Assembly: GCA_018693315.1 (NCBI GenBank)
Contig: JABHLR010000008.1
Coordinates: 1-42,471 of the forward strand
DNA length: 42,471 nt
Direction of reading: 5' to 3'
Origin: an archaeon
GTDB lineage: Archaea > Nanobdellota > Nanobdellia > Pacearchaeales > GW2011-AR1
This document shows positions 1,374-20,704 of the stretch, one piece after another (within the stretch, counting starts at the first letter, position 1; every line of letters begins with the position of its first letter). Below the pieces are notes generated by a model. It did not search any database, was not told where the DNA came from, and saw only the letters and a list, made by a program, of their open reading frames with translations. Position numbers and translations under genes: made by a program.

Positions 1374-1394
1374 TATTTGTGGGGTGGTTTTGTT

Positions 1395-4274
1395 ATGGAA
1401 ATTGACTTCGCGAAGATTGAGAAAAAGTGGCAGGGCAAGTGGGAGAAGGAGAAGGTTTTTCAAGTGAAGGATTCTGGTGCTGAGAAATATTATGTTTTGG
1501 AAATGTTTCCGTATCCGTCTGGGTCTGGTTTGCATATGGGGCATGCTTGGAATTATACGATTGGGGATATTTTGTCGCGGTTTAAGATAATGCAGGGGTT
1601 TAATGTTTTGCATCCGATGGGTTATGATGCTTTGGGTTTGCCTGCGGAGAATGCGGCGATTGAGAAGGGTGAGCATCCTGAGGATTATACGAAGAAATCT
1701 GTTGCGAATTTTACGAAGCAGTTTAAATCTTTGGGGATTAGTTATGATTGGTCGAGGATGGTTAATAGTTCTGATCCCAGTTATTACAAGTGGGATCAGT
1801 GGATTTTTTTGAAGATGTTGGAGAAGGGTCTTGCTTATCAGAAGGAGTCGGAGGTGAATTGGTGCGATAAGTGCAATACTGTTTTGGCGAATGAGCAGGT
1901 GCATGATGGGAAATGTTGGAGGCATGATAAGACTGATGTCGAGACGCGGAAATTGAAGCAGTGGTTTTTTAAGACGACTGAGTATGCGGATGAGTTGTAT
2001 GAAGGTTTGGATAAGATGGATTGGCCAGAGAGGACGAAGGCAATGCAGAAGAATTGGATTGGGAAGTCGCATGGGACTGAGATTGATTTTGAGGTTGAGG
2101 GAAAGAAGTGGTCTATTTTTACGACTCGGCCTGATACGATTTTTGGTGTTACTTTTATGGTTGTGTCGGCGCAGCATGCTGGGTTGGATGAGTTGGTGAC
2201 TGATGAACAGAGGAAGGATGTTGATAAGTTTTTGAAGAAGTTGAAATCTGTTTCGGAGAAGGATTCTGATAAGTTGGACAAGGAAGGAGTTTTTAGTGGG
2301 AGTTATGCGATTAATCCTGCGAATGGCGAGAAGATTCCTGTTTGGATTGGTAATTTTGTCGTCGCTGATTATGGCGCTGGAATGGTGATGGCTGTGCCTG
2401 CTCATGACCAGAGGGATTTTGATTTTGCTAAGAAGTATGGGATTGAAGTTCGGCAGGTTATTGCGCCTTATTTTTGTGATAAGGAATGTCCGCCTCGTGA
2501 AGGTAAGCGGCATGCTCCGAGAACGGTTGTGCAGGCGATTGTCAAGCACCCTAAGGAAAATAAAATTATTCAGATTCAATGGAAAAAGTTTGATTGGAAT
2601 ACTTTTGTGATTGGTGGGGCTGAGGAAGGTGAGACTTTAGAGGAAGCTGTTAAGAGAGAGGTTTACGAGGAAACTGGGTACAAGAATATTAAATCGATTA
2701 AGAAGATTGGTTTTGAGATGAGGAGCGAGTGGTATGCTTTGCACAAGGATGAGAATCGATATGCTTATATGAATGCGTTTTTTGTTGAGCTTTCTGATTT
2801 GAAGAAGGATGAGATTGCGGACGAGGAGAAAGAAAAACATGTTGTGGCTTGGGTTGATTTTGATAAGGTGAGGGATATTTATGGTCCTGTCTCGGAACTT
2901 AATTATATTTGTGACGCTCTTTCATCTGGAGAAAGCGCGTATACTAATGAAGGGAAGTTGGTTAATTCTGATGAATTTAATGAGATGAATAATGTTGATG
3001 CGAAGGATAAGATTACCAAATGGTTGGCGAAGAAAAAGGCTGCTAAGAAAGTTGTGAATTTTAAGTTGAGAGATTGGGGAGTTTCGCGGCAGAGATATTG
3101 GGGGACGCCGATTCCTGTTATTCATTGTGAGAAGTGTGGGGCTGTTCCAGTGCCTGAAAAAGATTTGCCGGTAAAGCTGCCTAAGGATGTGAAGTTTGGG
3201 AAGGGGAATCCGCTTGAGACGAATGAGAAATGGTTGAACGTTAAGTGTCCGAAATGTGCTGGAAAGGGGAAGAGGGAAAGTGATACGATGGATACTTTTG
3301 TGAATTCGAGTTGGTATTTTTTGAGGTATTGTGATCCGAATAATTCTAAGAAAATTTTTGATGCGAAGAAGGTGAAGTATTGGTGTCCTGTTGATACTTA
3401 TATTGGTGGGGCTGAGCACGCTTGTATGCATTTGATTTATTCGAGATTTTATGTTAAGTTTTTGAGAGATTTGGGATTGGTTGATTTCGATGAGCCTGCT
3501 GTAAAATTATTTCATCAGGGGATGTTGCATGGTGAGGATGGCGAGAAGATGAGTAAGTCGAAAGGGAATGGGGTTTTGCCAGAGGAGGTTTCTGGGAAGT
3601 ATGGGATTGATACTGCGCGGTTCTTTTTGTCTGGGATTGCTTCGCCGGATAAGGATATTGACTGGAGTAATAAGGGGATTAATGGTTCTTTGAGATTTGT
3701 GAATAAGGTTGTTGATTTGTGTTCTGGTGTTAAGATTGGTAAGGACAGCGACGAGGTTTTATCGAAATTGAATGAGACTGTTAAGAATGTTAGTTCGCAG
3801 ATTGATACGTTTGACTATAGGACTGCTACGATTCGGTTAAAGGAATTGTTTGATTTGTTGGCGAAGCAGAAGGAAATTTCTAAGGTGACTTTGGAGAGTG
3901 CTTTGAAAATGTTGGCGCCGTTTTGTCCGCATGTTGCTGAGGAGCTTTGGGAGAAGGTGGGGAATAAGGATTTTATTTCTAAATCTAACTGGCCGAAGTT
4001 TGACGAGTCTAAGGTTGCTAAGAAAGGGCAGGGTGGCGATTTGAACGAGAAGATTATTGAAGATGTTAATAGGATTTTGGAGAAGGTTGCTGACGCTAAG
4101 AAGGTTTATGTTTATGTGATGCCGTTTGAGTTGGCGAAGGTTGATGTGAAGAAAGTTGGGAAAGTTGTTGGGAAAGTTGTTGAAGTTTTTGCTGTTAATG
4201 ATTCTGGGAAGCACGACCCTGAGGGGAAGGCTAAGAGAGCTAAGCCGGGGAAGGCTTCTGTTTATGTTGAGTAA
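1395..4274 (+). CDS. leuS: Leucyl-tRNA synthetase with a Nudix domain inserted in the editing domain
   Basis: A class I synthetase of 959 residues that charges tRNA-Leu. The bacterial-type core shows the HIGH-like motif in LHMGHAWN, editing-domain signatures TTRPDTIFG and AVPAHDQRD, paired-Cys zinc sites, TMDTFVNSSWYF, and EKMSKSKGN. Between VRQVIAP (to about residue 358) and AYTNEGKLVNS (from 515), where ordinary bacterial LeuRS has a short hairpin, about 155 residues are inserted. They contain a perfect Nudix box at residues 407-429 (DNA 2613-2681): G-x5-E-x7-REVYEETGY. The C-terminus ends in PGKASVYVE, resembling archaeal LeuRS tails. The frame is continuous, so the fusion is real in this assembly. 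Whether the Nudix domain edits, senses a nucleotide or is structural is unknown. Confidence 0.97.
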   Translation: MEIDFAKIEKKWQGKWEKEKVFQVKDSGAEKYYVLEMFPYPSGSGLHMGHAWNYTIGDILSRFKIMQGFNVLHPMGYDALGLPAENAAIEKGEHPEDYTKKSVANFTKQFKSLGISYDWSRMVNSSDPSYYKWDQWIFLKMLEKGLAYQKESEVNWCDKCNTVLANEQVHDGKCWRHDKTDVETRKLKQWFFKTTEYADELYEGLDKMDWPERTKAMQKNWIGKSHGTEIDFEVEGKKWSIFTTRPDTIFGVTFMVVSAQHAGLDELVTDEQRKDVDKFLKKLKSVSEKDSDKLDKEGVFSGSYAINPANGEKIPVWIGNFVVADYGAGMVMAVPAHDQRDFDFAKKYGIEVRQVIAPYFCDKECPPREGKRHAPRTVVQAIVKHPKENKIIQIQWKKFDWNTFVIGGAEEGETLEEAVKREVYEETGYKNIKSIKKIGFEMRSEWYALHKDENRYAYMNAFFVELSDLKKDEIADEEKEKHVVAWVDFDKVRDIYGPVSELNYICDALSSGESAYTNEGKLVNSDEFNEMNNVDAKDKITKWLAKKKAAKKVVNFKLRDWGVSRQRYWGTPIPVIHCEKCGAVPVPEKDLPVKLPKDVKFGKGNPLETNEKWLNVKCPKCAGKGKRESDTMDTFVNSSWYFLRYCDPNNSKKIFDAKKVKYWCPVDTYIGGAEHACMHLIYSRFYVKFLRDLGLVDFDEPAVKLFHQGMLHGEDGEKMSKSKGNGVLPEEVSGKYGIDTARFFLSGIASPDKDIDWSNKGINGSLRFVNKVVDLCSGVKIGKDSDEVLSKLNETVKNVSSQIDTFDYRTATIRLKELFDLLAKQKEISKVTLESALKMLAPFCPHVAEELWEKVGNKDFISKSNWPKFDESKVAKKGQGGDLNEKIIEDVNRILEKVADAKKVYVYVMPFELAKVDVKKVGKVVGKVVEVFAVNDSGKHDPEGKAKRAKPGKASVYVE

Positions 4275-7694: not shown

Positions 7695-7702
7695 TTTTTA
7701 AG
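7695..7702 (-). promoter_or_regulatory. TATA element for alaS
   Basis: On the minus strand CTTAAAAA begins 29 nt before the alaS ATG. It overlaps the last codons of the upstream Lrp gene, so alaS can be transcribed independently. Confidence 0.45.
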
Positions 7703-8684
7703 GTTTGTTAAGCTTTAGCAAATTGTCGAATCCGGGGGTCCATTCGTCGGTTATCATTAGGACGGTGTCGACTGTTCGGATTACGTTTGGGAATTCTTTT
7801 TTTAGGTTTTCTAGAATCTCGTAATATTCTTGGTAGCTTTCGACGATTAGTTCTGGTTCTAGCTGCCACATGTTTCGGATGAAATATTGGATGTTTGGAA
7901 TTCTTGATAAGTGGTCTAGAAATTTTTGCTCGTCTTCTTTGCTATATCTATCTAGTTTGATTATTGCTTTGTAGAGCTCTAGCCCTAATTCGTTTAGGTC
8001 GACGCCGATTCGGTATTGAATTATTATTCCGTTTTGTTCTAGTCTTTTTAATCTGGTTTGGATTGTTTGGATTGTTGCTTTGGTTTTTGTTGAGAGATCG
8101 ACTAGTGAAATTCTCGCATTATTTACGACTTCTTTGATGATGCTCGAATCTAGTTCGTCTATTTTGTTATCTTCCATTTCTCCTGCGAACATTGTTGGCT
8201 CTTCTGTTTTATTTGTGAAATACATTTTTGGATATTGTTTGACGTCTACTAGGATCTGACCTTCTTCTTCTACAAGTATTTTGTTGAATTTTGAGATTAG
8301 TTCGTTTTTTAGTTCGAAGAATTCCATGTCGCTTTTGCAGAAGTAACCGAAGATTAGGTCCCATGAACCGGAGCATTCTCCCATCCAGTAAACTTTTCCG
8401 GATGTTCTGAGGTATTTGAATAGCCTTTCTTTTTCTGCTGGAATATTTCTTAGGTTGAGATATATTTTGTAGAGCTTGTATCCCATTTTGTGGGGGTTGA
8501 TTGATGCTTGGAAACCTGTGATGATTCCTCTTTTGACCAGTTGGTTTATTCTGTAATCTACTGCCTGCCTTGATTTGCCGACTTTTTTCGCGAGCTGAGT
8601 TGATGGAATTCTGCAATTTTTGTCGAGTTCTGTTAAAATCTTTCTATCTATCTTGTCTAATTTTATTTTATTTATTTCTACCAT
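7698..8684 (-). CDS. Tandem-duplicated Lrp/AsnC-family transcription regulator (Lrp-1)
   Basis: A protein of about 328 residues made of two Lrp/AsnC units in a row, each a winged helix-turn-helix followed by a RAM-like ligand/oligomerisation domain. Unit 1 begins LDKIDRKILTELDKNC and unit 2 begins IDELDSSIIKEVVNNARISL. Canonical Lrp has one unit of about 150 residues, so one chain here may mimic a dimer. The start at 8684 (MVEINK) fits the TATA box at 8707-8714 better than the ATG at 8693. The gene is divergent from a radical SAM gene and is paralogous to the regulator at 13492-14460, which has the same arrangement. It probably represses itself and the radical SAM gene (inference). Confidence 0.93.
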   Translation of the reverse strand: MVEINKIKLDKIDRKILTELDKNCRIPSTQLAKKVGKSRQAVDYRINQLVKRGIITGFQASINPHKMGYKLYKIYLNLRNIPAEKERLFKYLRTSGKVYWMGECSGSWDLIFGYFCKSDMEFFELKNELISKFNKILVEEEGQILVDVKQYPKMYFTNKTEEPTMFAGEMEDNKIDELDSSIIKEVVNNARISLVDLSTKTKATIQTIQTRLKRLEQNGIIIQYRIGVDLNELGLELYKAIIKLDRYSKEDEQKFLDHLSRIPNIQYFIRNMWQLEPELIVESYQEYYEILENLKKEFPNVIRTVDTVLMITDEWTPGFDNLLKLNKP

Positions 8685-8685
8685 A

Positions 8686-8733
8686 CTTGGCATATATTGT
8701 TTTTTCTTTATAAATATTGTGGTTTATGCCAAG
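8686..8733. promoter_or_regulatory. Candidate Lrp operator: inverted repeat flanking the Lrp-1 TATA box
   Basis: CTTGGCAT (8686-8693) and ATGCCAAG (8726-8733) are perfect inverted copies. Their dyad centre falls within 1 bp of the centre of TTTATAAA (8707-8714), the TATA box of the Lrp-1 gene. The arms are 40 bp apart centre to centre, about four helical turns. A smaller palindrome, CCAAGAATTTGG (8729-8740), overlaps the distal arm. Confidence 0.5.
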
Positions 8734-8782
8734 AATTTGGTGGAAACTTTGATATAGGTATATGACTATATGTTATTACAAT

Positions 8783-8817: not shown

Positions 8818-10188
8818 ATGACACAAGAAAAATATGAGACAAAGTTCCCAGTAACTTTCGAGGGCGAGGTTAGCAATGGATGGACTAATGGAGTAAAGAA
8901 TTGGCACATTCGAAATGCTACGCCTGGATTGTTCACGCTGGATTTGGAGCATATTGCAAATGACTTGGTTGAATTGCATAATGATCCGGGCAATGAGGAA
9001 AGTGTGGAATCGATGTATTATGGTAAGGTTTGTGCGCATAAGTGTAAATCTTGTTTTAATGAAGAGAGAGGAGTTTACAGTAAGGAGATTTACGATTTGG
9101 ACAAGAAAGCTGTCCTGGATGATGAGGGTAATGCTAAGTTGAATAGGTTGATGACTCTTGAGGATACTGTTAATGTGGTTGATCAGGCTATTGAGATAGC
9201 TGCGGAAGAGGGACATGATTTTAAGAGTGTTAAGTTTCTTGGGCCTGGTGAGCTGTTGATGAATCCTCAGTTGTTCGATATTATTGACGCGTATAAAGCT
9301 AGAGGGGTGCAGTTGAATATTTTCACGAAAGGGGCATTACTTGGAAGTGATGAGTTGGCTCAGAAATACCAGGGGATGAATGCTAAGGAATTGACGGACA
9401 GATTGGCGAGTTGTGATAATGTTGGGTTGCTTATGTCTTTCCAGTCGTTTGATGGAGAGAGGCAGAATGATCTTGTTACGAGCAAGGATGAGAATGGTGA
9501 AACTGTGGGTCTTCAGGGCTATTCTCAAATTAGAGAACAGACTCTTGAGAATATGTTTGGCTCGGAATTATATAAGAATGGGATGACGAATAGGGTTTGT
9601 ATGATTAATGCGCCGATTGTTCCTGAAAATGTTGATGAATCTTTTTATATCTATAAGTTCTTTATTGAAAGAGGTACTCCTATAGTCATGACTCCGTCTA
9701 TGGTTAGTGGTAAGGGTTGTGGGCAGTACGAGAGGCAAAAGGAGATTATGACTATGGAAGACTGGCATGAAAAGCTTGTGGGCTTGTATGCGAAGATTTA
9801 TGCGTTCAATGTTGAGAAGGGGATTCAAACGGATGAGCAGATAAAAGAGGAAGGGGTTGCATCTTATGTTGGGGCTGAGCCTTGTAATCAGGCATCTACG
9901 GGATTGTACATTAGAGGAAATGGGATTGTGCAGAGTTGTCCTGGAAGATTTGATAGCGAAACGGTTTATGCTAATGTTCAAGAAACTTCGCTAAAAGATA
10001 TTTGGATGAATTCTTCGAATAAGCAAAGAGGGATTGATGATCCTCAGAACTTGATTAACAATAAATGTCCTGCGAAGGATGAAAATGGTAGCACGGTTAA
10101 GTTTGAAGGTTGTGGATTTCCTCAAGACTTTTATGATAGAGTTATGAAAAAATATTCTGATTTAATGGGTGGAAGTGAAAATGAGTGA
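8818..10188 (+). CDS. Radical SAM enzyme with SPASM-like C-terminus
   Basis: A 456-residue radical SAM protein. Cys72, Cys76 and Cys79 form the CxxxCxxC motif (CAHKCKSC) for the SAM-binding 4Fe-4S cluster, and GPGE (142-145) fits the SAM-contact motif. The C-terminal part has Cys301, Cys356, Cys374, Cys417 and Cys432, a spacing that suggests one or two auxiliary clusters as in SPASM/twitch enzymes. Such enzymes modify peptides, proteins or carbohydrates; the substrate here is unknown. It is divergent from the tandem Lrp gene at 7698. A 10-codon frame (10181-10213) overlaps its stop. Confidence 0.92.
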   Translation: MTQEKYETKFPVTFEGEVSNGWTNGVKNWHIRNATPGLFTLDLEHIANDLVELHNDPGNEESVESMYYGKVCAHKCKSCFNEERGVYSKEIYDLDKKAVLDDEGNAKLNRLMTLEDTVNVVDQAIEIAAEEGHDFKSVKFLGPGELLMNPQLFDIIDAYKARGVQLNIFTKGALLGSDELAQKYQGMNAKELTDRLASCDNVGLLMSFQSFDGERQNDLVTSKDENGETVGLQGYSQIREQTLENMFGSELYKNGMTNRVCMINAPIVPENVDESFYIYKFFIERGTPIVMTPSMVSGKGCGQYERQKEIMTMEDWHEKLVGLYAKIYAFNVEKGIQTDEQIKEEGVASYVGAEPCNQASTGLYIRGNGIVQSCPGRFDSETVYANVQETSLKDIWMNSSNKQRGIDDPQNLINNKCPAKDENGSTVKFEGCGFPQDFYDRVMKKYSDLMGGSENE

Positions 10189-13491: not shown

Positions 13492-14460
13492 TTAGAAGTA
13501 AACGAATTTGTGTTCTTTTGAGATTGTTATGATGTCGATGTTTTTTATTATGTCTGAGAATTTGTCTTTGATGTCTGTTAAGATTTTATTGAACTCTTCT
13601 TCTGATGTGACTTCGAATTCTGGTTCTAAATCCCAGTTACTGATTACCTTTACGTGATGGATTACGTTTTTATGTTGTTTAAGATATTGGGTTAATTCTT
13701 GAATTTTGGTTTTTTCTGGATTGTCGAGATAGACGAAGCCTTTGTAGAATTGGATTCCGAGTTTTTCGTAGTTGATCGCGATTCGGAAGCCTTGGATTAG
13801 TTTTAATTTTATCATTTGTTTAATTCGGTAGGCTATGATTCTTGCCGTTGTGTTTAGTTCTGTTGCGATGTCGACTGCGGACTTTCTTGCGTTTTCGCTT
13901 AGTTGTTTTAGGATTTTTATGTCGATGTCTTCTAGGTCAATTTTTTCCGAGGAATCGAGAAGGGTTTTTTCTTCCGAGTTTTGTTCGTCTAAGATAAAGC
14001 TTCTGCTGCAAACTGATGCTCGCGAACTTATTGATATTGCTTTTTTTGAAACGAATCCGGAAAATGCGCTCAAAACTTCGTTTTTTAATGAATCTATATT
14101 TGCTACCGAATCTGTTTCTAGGGCTGCAACTAGATCCCACGCTCCATTGCAAGAAACTAGCCATTTGACATTTTTGTTTTCTTTTAATTTGGATATTTTT
14201 TTCTCTAGCTCCCCTGAAGTAATATGCTGGAATGATAATAAGACCCTAAATTGTATTACTCCTAGCTTCGAAAGATTTAGAGCTACTTGATATTGGGTGA
14301 TTATTTTTTCTTGCTCTAGTCTTTTGATCCGGTAGCTTACGACTTCGGTTGAGAGGCCGACTTTTTTTGCGATTGTTGAATTTGGTTGTCTGCAATCTTT
14401 GTCTAGTTCTGAAAGTATCTTTCTGTCCTTTAGATCTAATCCAAATGTTTTTTCCTTCAT
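13492..14460 (-). CDS. Tandem-duplicated Lrp/AsnC-family transcription regulator (Lrp-2)
   Basis: A 322-residue paralogue of the regulator at 7698-8684, again two winged-helix plus RAM-like units. Unit 1 starts LDLKDRKILSELDKDC and has IAKKVGLSTEVVSYRIKRL as its DNA-binding helix pair. Unit 2 starts IDLEDIDIKILKQLSENARK. The two paralogues share the unit-1 layout and the closing segment (D...EFNKILTDIKDKF against YEILENLKKEF). It is divergent from the B12-type radical SAM gene, with 118 bp between, and has its own TATA box. It probably regulates that gene (inference). Confidence 0.93.
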   Translation of the reverse strand: MKEKTFGLDLKDRKILSELDKDCRQPNSTIAKKVGLSTEVVSYRIKRLEQEKIITQYQVALNLSKLGVIQFRVLLSFQHITSGELEKKISKLKENKNVKWLVSCNGAWDLVAALETDSVANIDSLKNEVLSAFSGFVSKKAISISSRASVCSRSFILDEQNSEEKTLLDSSEKIDLEDIDIKILKQLSENARKSAVDIATELNTTARIIAYRIKQMIKLKLIQGFRIAINYEKLGIQFYKGFVYLDNPEKTKIQELTQYLKQHKNVIHHVKVISNWDLEPEFEVTSEEEFNKILTDIKDKFSDIIKNIDIITISKEHKFVYF

Positions 14461-14481
14461 ATTTAGTATTATTACACTTAT

Positions 14482-14489
14482 TATTTAAA
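14482..14489 (-). promoter_or_regulatory. TATA element for Lrp-2
   Basis: Minus-strand TTTAAATA begins 29 nt before the ATG at 14460. Confidence 0.55.
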
Positions 14490-14553
14490 TCTTGTCATTT
14501 TATTGCATTTTCTCATAAGATGTTTTAACTAGTGTTTTGCCTTGATAATAGTA

Positions 14554-14569
14554 ACTCCTTGAAAGGGGT
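14554..14569 (+). promoter_or_regulatory. Leader hairpin containing the Shine-Dalgarno site of radical SAM gene 2
   Basis: ACTCCT (14554-14559), loop TGAA, AGGGGT (14564-14569) form a 6-bp stem with one T-G pair. The 3' arm is the Shine-Dalgarno sequence for the ATG at 14579, so folding would hide the ribosome site. A weak TATA-like TTTTAACT at 14523 would start the transcript almost at the hairpin. Confidence 0.45.
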
Positions 14570-14578
14570 AATAAGAAA

Positions 14579-16192
14579 ATGGATAGACAAAAAGAAAAAA
14601 ATGTTGAGAGAGAAAAGAAAAAGGTTATGTTTGTTAAGCCGCATTTGGAGACTGATGCAGTTTGGGATCCCATAAGAACGTGTCCTTATATCGGGGCGTG
14701 GTATATGACTTCTGGGCTTAAGGAACGTGGGCATGATGTGAAATACTTAGATGAAGTTACTCGGAATAACGGTCTAGAGAATAGGACTTTGTTTAGGAGG
14801 GATATGATTAATGGAGAAACAACCGAAACTCCTGTTGAAACTTCTTATGAGGATTTTCAGGCGCAAAAGATGGCGGACTATAGGTCTATGACCCCTGAGT
14901 CTTTTGTGGATAAATATTCTGCGTTTGGTGAAGATGGGGAAATTTCCAGAACAATGGTTCGGACTGGAAATGATCTTGAGGATACATTAAATGATATTGG
15001 CGATATGAATCCTGATGTTGTTGGGATTCCGTTGATTGCTACTGCCAATTATATTCCAGCGACAAAATTGGGCAGGGCTATTAAAGACAGGTTTCCTGAT
15101 GTAAAGGTTGTATTCGGTGGACAACATATCTCTGCGGATCCTGAGGGTTTTTTGAGAGATAATGATTATGTTGATCAGGTTGTTTCCGGGGATGCTATTT
15201 CGGCCATGACTGACATAGCTGAGGGTAGGAATAATGATAAAATTGTTTATGGTGGATTTAGAAATTTTGACGAATTCCCGTTGCTTGACCCTTCGATTAT
15301 TGAGGGGAACGATTATCCTGACGAGCCGATTCATACTTATCCTACTGATGGAAGGAAGAGTGTAGATTATATGTTTTCTAAAGGGTGTTTTAGGCGGTGT
15401 GATTTTTGTGTTGCTGGAAGTCAGGAAGGGAATCACGTAACTCCGATTGATTATGATATGGTTGATGAACAGTTGCGTATATTTAAGAAAAATGGTATTG
15501 AAGAACTTGTGATCCAGGATGATGCTTACCTTTGGGATAAGAATCATGTTCGGGAACATTTGCCTAAGTTGCTGGGGCTTATGAAGAAGCATGGGATGTA
15601 TTGGCAAAATAATGGTGGGATGGAATTTGAAATGATGGATGATTTTGTTACCGAAGAGATCTTGAAATATAATTCGTCTGGAGAGGGTCGTGCTACTTCT
15701 TTGTATGTTCCGTTTAACCCGCGTACTTGGAATAAGGGACAGAGTGTTTCCGGAACCATGTCTGAAAGATATCATGCGAATTTGGATAATTTGAAAAAAT
15801 TGAAGGATGCTGGGGTGTTTGTTTTCACTAGTGGAATTATTGGTACTCCTGAGCAGACTAGAGAAACTATTGATGAAGATATTGAGATGAATAAGAAATT
15901 GATTGAAGAGGGATATCTTAGCTCTGCACTTTCTCTTTCAGCTACGATGCTTCCTGCGACTAAATGGTATGATTCTAATGGCCATAATATTGTAGATAAA
16001 GAAGATTATGCTGGATTCTCGTTGTTTACTACGCATCATAGTACTCCGCACATGTCTCCTAGAGATATTGAAACTTCAATGATTCGTTGGAGTCAGGAAC
16101 TTGACAAAGTTCAGACTACTTACAAATGGGGAACTGGGTTTCCTAGTGCTGAGAATGGTAGTAATCAAGATTTGAAAAGGGGTGATGAATAA
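14579..16192 (+). CDS. B12-binding-domain radical SAM protein
   Basis: A 537-residue protein with an N-terminal cobalamin-binding-like Rossmann domain (about 15-215; YIGAWYMTSGLKERGHDV, DVVGIPLIATANY, VFGGQH) and a radical SAM barrel with CxxxCxxC at Cys270, Cys274 and Cys277 (CFRRCDFC). This class includes methyltransferases acting on unactivated carbon and other unusual C-C chemistry; the substrate is not predictable. It has a leader with hairpin and Shine-Dalgarno site, is divergent from Lrp-2, and is followed at once by a small gene whose Shine-Dalgarno site is within its last codons. Confidence 0.93.
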   Translation: MDRQKEKNVEREKKKVMFVKPHLETDAVWDPIRTCPYIGAWYMTSGLKERGHDVKYLDEVTRNNGLENRTLFRRDMINGETTETPVETSYEDFQAQKMADYRSMTPESFVDKYSAFGEDGEISRTMVRTGNDLEDTLNDIGDMNPDVVGIPLIATANYIPATKLGRAIKDRFPDVKVVFGGQHISADPEGFLRDNDYVDQVVSGDAISAMTDIAEGRNNDKIVYGGFRNFDEFPLLDPSIIEGNDYPDEPIHTYPTDGRKSVDYMFSKGCFRRCDFCVAGSQEGNHVTPIDYDMVDEQLRIFKKNGIEELVIQDDAYLWDKNHVREHLPKLLGLMKKHGMYWQNNGGMEFEMMDDFVTEEILKYNSSGEGRATSLYVPFNPRTWNKGQSVSGTMSERYHANLDNLKKLKDAGVFVFTSGIIGTPEQTRETIDEDIEMNKKLIEEGYLSSALSLSATMLPATKWYDSNGHNIVDKEDYAGFSLFTTHHSTPHMSPRDIETSMIRWSQELDKVQTTYKWGTGFPSAENGSNQDLKRGDE

Positions 16193-19972: not shown

Positions 19973-19988
19973 GCATGTTTGGCAAACT

Positions 19989-19996
19989 CTTATAAA
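19989..19996 (+). promoter_or_regulatory. TATA element for the gene at 20018
   Basis: CTTATAAA lies 29 nt before the ATG at 20018. Confidence 0.65.
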
Positions 19997-20017
19997 GATT
20001 ATTTCCTATTTTGATTT

Positions 20018-20704
20018 ATGATAAAAAGTGCTGGTGTATTGTTTTTAGTATTTGTTTTGGTTATGAGTTTTGGTTTGGTTGTTGCTGAAGATGCTAGTGC
20101 TCCTGAGGATCCAAGCGCTACTGGTGTTCCCAATGTGGCCGGTGTTCCTGGCGTAGAAGAACTTGAGAAAACAAAAGAAATTATTGATAAGGTTAGCCCT
20201 GTAAATGAAGAGGGCGATCTTGAGTTTGAAAAATTTACCCCATATAAAAGTTGGGCCGAAGAAAGACTGGTTTCTGTTAATAAATATGTTGGATGGTTTA
20301 GTAAGCTTTTACTTGGTGTCGAACTATCTCTTTCGTGGATTTTTGTTTTCTCTATTGTTTTGTTTATTTTGCTTTTTGTTATTGTTTATAATTCTATAAA
20401 TGGGTTTTTTAACTCCAGTGCTCTTTTTTCTGCCGTGTTTGCTTTTATCGTATCGATTTTGGGGATGCAGGGGATGGGGAAAGATTTTGTTGTATGGGTT
20501 GACTCCGTTGCTACAACCTGGTGGCTGAGTGCTATTGTTATCTTGTTTGGGATTATAGTTGGATTTATATATGCTATCTTCGCAAAAACGATTGGGAAAA
20601 AATTTATAGAAAGCAGAAAAGCTGCCCAGAGCGAAGATGACAAGAAAGAGAAAGAGTTGTTTCGTGCTCAGGCGGAATTGATTAGGGAAAATTTGGGAAT
20701 ATAG
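20018..20704 (+). CDS. Signal-peptide membrane protein, possible third paralogue
   Basis: A 228-residue protein with a signal peptide (LFLVFVLVMSFGLVVAEDA) almost the same at its cleavage region as the neighbour at 19229 (LVVAEDA). A Pro/Gly/Val-rich secreted segment follows, then about four membrane helices and a charged helical tail (SEDDKKEKELFRAQAELIRENLG). The layout equals that of paralogues A and B, although I see little direct alignment of the helices. Function unknown. Confidence 0.8.
   Translation: MIKSAGVLFLVFVLVMSFGLVVAEDASAPEDPSATGVPNVAGVPGVEELEKTKEIIDKVSPVNEEGDLEFEKFTPYKSWAEERLVSVNKYVGWFSKLLLGVELSLSWIFVFSIVLFILLFVIVYNSINGFFNSSALFSAVFAFIVSILGMQGMGKDFVVWVDSVATTWWLSAIVILFGIIVGFIYAIFAKTIGKKFIESRKAAQSEDDKKEKELFRAQAELIRENLGI

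Follow-up and report, generated by a model that had tools for sequence, protein, structure and literature searches.

A conserved inverted repeat bracketing the TATA box as a probable two-arm operator of tandem Lrp genes in archaea

Analysis of a 42,471-nucleotide stretch of archaeal DNA (the window) leads us to propose that an inverted repeat in front of Lrp-1, a tandem Lrp/AsnC regulator gene, is probably a two-arm autoregulatory operator of that adjoining gene, each arm being bound by one regulator chain and the two chains bracketing the TATA box. The repeat is conserved among orthologues of Lrp-1, its arms keep a fixed spacing and a fixed register to the TATA box, and the half-site changes together with the recognition helix of the protein. 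Regulators of small uncultured (DPANN-type) archaea are mostly known from annotation only. A rigid family-wide layout would allow the target half-site of a tandem Lrp to be predicted from the promoter of its gene, and half-site and recognition helix, taken as pairs, would provide a natural code for testing. The promoter region is laid out as follows.

7698..8684, minus strand: Lrp-1, tandem Lrp/AsnC regulator (HTH-RAM-HTH-RAM), start corrected to 8684
8686..8696, minus strand: putative operator arm downstream of the TATA box (proximal), reading TATATGCCAAG on the strand of Lrp-1, with its GC core at 8690-8691
8707..8714, minus strand: TATA box TTTATAAA of Lrp-1, its axis 1 bp off the dyad axis
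8723..8733, minus strand: putative operator arm upstream of the TATA box (distal), reading CTTGGCATAAA on the strand of Lrp-1, with its GC core at 8728-8729, about 45 nt before the ATG
8747..8755, plus strand: CTTTGATAT, putative TATA element for the divergently transcribed radical SAM gene
8818..10188, plus strand: divergent radical SAM/SPASM gene, probable co-regulated neighbour

The start of Lrp-1 was assigned to the ATG at 8684, which opens a reading conserved among orthologues (MVEI...), and not to 8693; the left arm therefore lies just upstream of the gene rather than inside it. The distal arm is the best-conserved element of the upstream alignment, with the consensus TTGAGCATAAA and nearly invariant core positions (11 promoters). 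The proximal arm is its inverted copy, with a core exactly 38 bp from the distal core, and sits between the TATA box and the ATG, directly before the latter, like a site of the LrpA type, which borders the TATA box downstream. We set aside an RNA hairpin by inference: with the distal arm upstream of the TATA box, the transcript should not contain it.

The first-pass annotation had described CTTGGCAT (8686-8693) and ATGCCAAG (8726-8733) as perfect inverted copies, which they are, the match even reaching 9 nt (CTTGGCATA at 8686-8694 and TATGCCAAG at 8725-8733) around a spacer of 30 nt. It had also placed the dyad axis on the axis of the TATA box; the two are near each other but do not coincide, at 8709.5 and 8710.5 respectively. 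We rejected the repeat by itself as significant: it is unremarkable alone because the window contains five perfect 9-nt inverted repeats of spacer 10-40, the number that chance would give (4.8 expected). Inside its own 83-nt promoter the repeat is unusual (p = 0.010, 200 shuffles), and the arrangement CTTGGCAT-N20-40-ATGCCAAG has a single occurrence across the 674,103-base genome sequence searched. A per-promoter shuffled inverted-repeat score proved too blunt, falling below 0.05 in only eight of 34 loci, because AT-rich promoters yield long chance repeats. It is conservation that gives the repeat its significance.

For the orthologues of Lrp-1 (group 1) we drew on 11 named sequences with 52-74% identity, whose contigs are labelled Pacearchaeota, Nanoarchaeota, Micrarchaeota, Burarchaeum and, in one case, Nomurabacteria, and on further sequences from seven of 200 genomes of the order, 23 of 371 of the phylum and six of 193 around G350, sets that overlap. 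Counting GC dinucleotides only, from the distal core to any downstream GC and without regard to the relatedness of the genomes, we found an inverted GC core exactly 38 bp downstream of the distal GC core in 13 of 18 promoters, all other offsets occurring at most twice each; L048 (corrected) and L078 (found later) are also at 38 bp, giving 15 of 20. The proximal core stands at 39 bp in L036, and none is present at 38 bp in L032, L044, L051 and L039. In L034 and L037 the 38-bp pair is displaced upstream by about 50 bp, to about 95 bp from the Lrp start, where it does not bracket the Lrp TATA box but precedes it, which suggests a different regulatory outcome at these two loci. When the match nearest to the axis is chosen, the TATA-like hexamer is offset from the dyad axis by -1.0 in 13 of the 20 orthologues, by 0.0 in two and by -3.0 in one, with no match in four. 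The earlier proposal of an operator that brackets the TATA box thus gains support from the conservation of the 38-bp layout.

A motif built from the distal arms of the other loci finds the inverted proximal arm of the locus left out (Fisher p 4e-12 over 12 group-1 loci, with an individual p < 0.05 in eight of these 12 promoters), and the forward-strand control of the same scan is not significant. The window's own proximal arm reaches only p = 0.30, because it carries the rarer GG/CC variant, and the four micrarchaeal promoters taken alone give no significant proximal arm. Standard pairs between the two arms fill 128 of 200 cells (64%), against 18-33% after one arm is slid by 1-3 bp. Arms also match better within than across group-1 promoters (p 0.0002), an excess that disappears at odd spacings; tests of this within/across kind show a fixed axis and not 38 bp as such. 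In a spacing profile computed without a fixed axis every even spacing is raised, because a fixed axis lets the windows slide; the profile alone cannot single out 38, and we therefore relied on the core-offset count.

Similar pairs appear in front of other tandem Lrp genes. The genome of the window encodes at least five tandem Lrps (Lrp-1 and at least four more), and a relative of Lrp-2 is found at E 1e-30 in 64 of 180 genomes of the order. Across 31 more distant tandem-Lrp promoters the even register scores 6.10 within against 3.75 across promoters (p 0.0002), the odd register shows no excess (3.13 against 3.59), and pairs at exactly 38 bp score 4.87 against 2.46; for 20 non-Lrp promoters of the window at 38 bp the values are 1.9 and 1.32 (p 0.15). 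Some small genomes show a strong expansion of the family, as in G075 (about 1.4 Mb), which has 12 tandem-Lrp matches. L067, of a third subfamily (L065-L067), carries TTCGTGACAAA / TTTGTCACGAA, an 11-nt perfect inverted repeat around the TATA box and upstream of the Lrp start; its 19-nt spacer is off the 38-bp rule, and it has no counterpart in L065 or L066.

In ten other genomes with Lrp-1, scanned with the spacing fixed and at most two mismatches, the dyad pattern matched the Lrp-1 promoter in all ten, as the unique best site in seven and a tied best in three; the pattern had been designed without the promoters of G324 and G550. The same scan gave 47 forward against eight control sites, and the window's own genome, at up to three mismatches, gave 10 sites against six for the reversed pattern, a control that contains a CpG and is probably too strict; we therefore claim no regulon beyond the Lrp-1 promoter. 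The second-best dyad match in the window, with two mismatches, lies at 19978-20025 and consists of TTTGGCAAA, a TATA-like CTTATAAAG and then TTTATGATAAA, which overlaps the ATG of the ORF at 20018; this gene is possibly co-regulated through the dyad, or the match may be due to chance. A reading as chance, with an inverted repeat arising in AT-rich sequence around the conserved core-promoter elements (BRE, TATA, initiator), would account for the frequency of perfect 9-nt repeats in the window and for the few loci at which per-promoter shuffles are significant. It would not account for the fixed 38-bp spacing, the odd-spacing and slid controls, the non-Lrp promoter control or the scan matches in every genome, and we strongly disfavour it, leaving it almost no probability.

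The divergent gene of the window scores above the Pfam cut-off for SPASM and below that for Radical_SAM, with a weak match to NirJ1 (25.7 bits, cut-off 650), and a BLAST homologue of it is divergent in 12 of 20 group-1 loci, the window included (11 of 19 others). The CxxxCxxC motif, which marks radical SAM enzymes, occurs in the divergent ORF of 14 of 20 group-1 loci and of five of 13 loci in a sister subfamily (group 2); of these two sets, 12 and 10 loci respectively have a divergent TATA element at -26 from the distal core. The first-pass annotation had made the repeat depend on its being conserved wherever the gene pair is, and this expectation held: a divergent gene similar to the radical SAM gene of the window stands at 12 loci, the window among them, nine of which keep the 38-bp core, the others being L036 (39 bp) and L039 and L051 (no core). 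Of the six group-1 loci without a divergent gene that carries the CxxxCxxC motif, five (L030, L037, L045, L046 and L078) also have the operator and one, L044, does not. As the repeat is kept where the divergent gene differs or is absent, the operator follows the Lrp gene. A second tandem Lrp divergent from a radical SAM gene, here of the B12-binding type, is found at 13492-16192, so that the pairing occurs twice in the window. Elsewhere in the window, the leucyl-tRNA synthetase ORF (1377-4274) contains a mid-ORF stretch, GGAEEGETLEEAVKREVYEETGY, that we take to resemble a Nudix box.

Group 2 provides a comparison in which both the half-site and the protein have changed. The half-site here is TTnACC; 10 of 13 loci have the CC and GG cores 38 bp apart, the next commonest offset being 49, in five loci, at an ATGG around the start codon. 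The leave-one-out motif recovers the group-2 proximal arm (Fisher 8e-10, 13 loci); the within/across test is not significant for group 2 alone (p 0.23), as expected of a set whose members have a single half-site in common. Between group 1 and group 2 the core goes from GC to CC, alongside a change of Gln43 to Glu and of Glu/Asp46 to Lys: all 20 group-1 proteins have Q at residue 43 of the first recognition helix, where all 13 of group 2 have E, and residue 46 is E, D or A in group 1 against K in all 13 proteins of group 2. The joint change of helix and half-site is an association and not proof of contact, because 20 other positions likewise separate the two groups completely. The second recognition helix is less conserved than the first (mean top-residue frequency 0.58 against 0.82 in 18 group-1 proteins), and in Mantel tests over 32 promoters the partial r is 0.178 for HTH1 (p 0.015) and 0.112 for HTH2 (p 0.04). 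We make no claim that HTH1 alone reads the arm, the lead of HTH1 over HTH2 in these tests being modest.

With at least four further tandem Lrps in the same genome, the arms could in principle be read by a different regulator, for example one of these, Lrp-1 being merely its target. We regard this as unlikely, given that the half-site tracks the subfamily and helix of the Lrp protein itself, that the 31 other tandem-Lrp promoters tend to have matched pairs of their own, and that genomes of several families have the dyad at their Lrp-1 promoter. Conserved paired sites and the association of helix with half-site are indirect signs that Lrp-1 may bind DNA in a sequence-specific way.

The protein has the AsnC-type helix-turn-helix of Lrp/AsnC regulators, with Pfam matches to HTH_24 (84.3 bits) and HTH_AsnC-type (76.6 bits), both above cut-off and each in two stretches. 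No RAM family appears among its Pfam matches at E 0.01, and the RAM-type alpha/beta domain after the HTH is recognized by fold only, an AlphaFold model made from 12 orthologues (pLDDT 89.1, pTM 0.84) containing two full HTH-RAM modules, each with such a domain. The full modules align with solved Lrps at Z of about 10, and over the whole chain the fused dimer NirDL gives the best match (Z 20.0, 281 residues, rmsd 4.5, TM 0.62-0.66, sequence identity about 11-12%). The model thus suggests that one Lrp-1 chain may be the equivalent of an Lrp dimer.

Given this likeness of the modelled chain to a fused Lrp dimer, it is more likely that each arm takes its own chain than that a single chain reaches across to both. 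The first-pass annotation had raised the latter as a possibility; in such a clamp HTH1 would sit on one arm and HTH2 on the other. Each chain does have two HTHs, and variation in HTH2 is weakly correlated with the operator; the arms, however, carry the same core, yet the two recognition helices differ in sequence and that of HTH2 is much less conserved, and the 38 bp between the arms is far above the 13-17 bp read by an Lrp dimer (PMC2995911). The chain, moreover, models as a compact NirDL-like fused dimer, and we consider the one-chain arrangement distinctly improbable, setting the earlier claim aside.

The structural match invites another reading, in which Lrp-1 is a siroheme-decarboxylase-like enzyme (NirDL/Ahb) that partners the radical SAM protein and the repeat is incidental. 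NirDL is indeed the best whole-chain match, and the neighbour is a SPASM-type radical SAM gene with its weak NirJ1 match, but Lrp-1 scores only 19.8 bits with the AhbA model (cut-off 140) and 20.4 bits with AhbB (cut-off 125), its first recognition helix is highly conserved, and the arms hold an exact spacing and vary with subfamily. We judge an enzymatic role of this kind very unlikely and retain the two-arm operator as our working model.

In that model, each arm (consensus TTnRGCATAAA) would be read by one chain, whose two Lrp modules would fold like a fused Lrp dimer and whose first HTH would supply most of the base specificity. Two dyad-related chains would thus flank the TATA box at a distance of 38 bp from each other. 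The proximal arm would fill the stretch from the TATA box to the start codon and keep RNA polymerase out, as for P. furiosus LrpA, for which a review reports negative autoregulation from a site bordering the TATA box downstream, with RNA polymerase excluded and TBP/TFB remaining bound (PMC2995911). The distal arm lies just upstream of the putative BREs of both the Lrp-1 and the divergent promoters, the usual archaeal Lrp activator position, which according to the same review is just upstream of the BRE and tightly constrained (PMC2995911). As the arms occupy known repressor and activator positions, we propose autorepression through the proximal arm and activation through the distal one, so that the bound protein could activate the radical SAM gene and repress Lrp-1, presumably in response to a ligand.

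The spacing itself corresponds to about 3.6 helical turns, which is not a whole number and would put the arms out of phase on straight B-DNA, and it raises the question of why 38 bp should be used over a TATA box as against the two or three full turns described in a review of archaeal Lrps (PMC2995911). One speculation, to which we would give a low probability, is that the 38-bp spacing is tuned to a TBP-bent, partly unwound TATA box. The regulator would then clamp the TBP/TFB complex rather than compete with it, two tandem-Lrp chains fitting both arms best on promoters that already carry TBP/TFB, and the arrangement would be a general autoregulatory device of the expanded DPANN tandem-Lrp family, with a helix-to-half-site code readable from sequence.

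Our literature search found no paper on DPANN tandem Lrps or on a 38-bp TATA-bracketing pair, though its coverage of subscription journals was thin, making this weak evidence of absence. Among described systems, BarR of Sulfolobales resembles Lrp-1 in being an Lrp regulator divergent from an enzyme gene (an aminotransferase) with sites between the promoters (PMC10201364). Ah-BarR represses its own gene and activates the divergent gene in a reporter system, and a weak site is predicted on the downstream side of its own TATA box (PMC10201364). An operator between the promoters of the regulator and a divergent enzyme gene is likewise found here. Unlike Lrp-1, BarR is described there as a single-module octamer with three confirmed 15-bp semipalindromic sites and spacers of 17 and 27-29 bp, or two and three turns (PMC10201364); an array of such sites at two or three helical turns was not found in our promoters, which have one dyad pair at a dominant spacing of 38 bp, with the TATA box between the arms.

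The proximal arm shares with the site of P. furiosus LrpA its position bordering the TATA box downstream, but LrpA is single-module, and no paired upstream arm at a fixed spacing is described for it in the part of the review that treats it (PMC2995911). Similarly, the activator sites of Ptr2, LysM and Ss-LrpB lie just upstream of the BRE, as does the distal arm, but are given there as spaced by two or three turns rather than by about 3.6 (PMC2995911). NirDL (4ch7, 4czc), like Lrp-1, has two Lrp-like modules fused in one chain, but is a siroheme decarboxylase enzyme, from which Lrp-1 is set apart by AhbA/AhbB scores far below the cut-offs and by the low identity. Set beside these systems, the conserved TATA-bracketing 38-bp pair appears, from its sequence pattern, to be a new form of known archaeal Lrp autoregulation.
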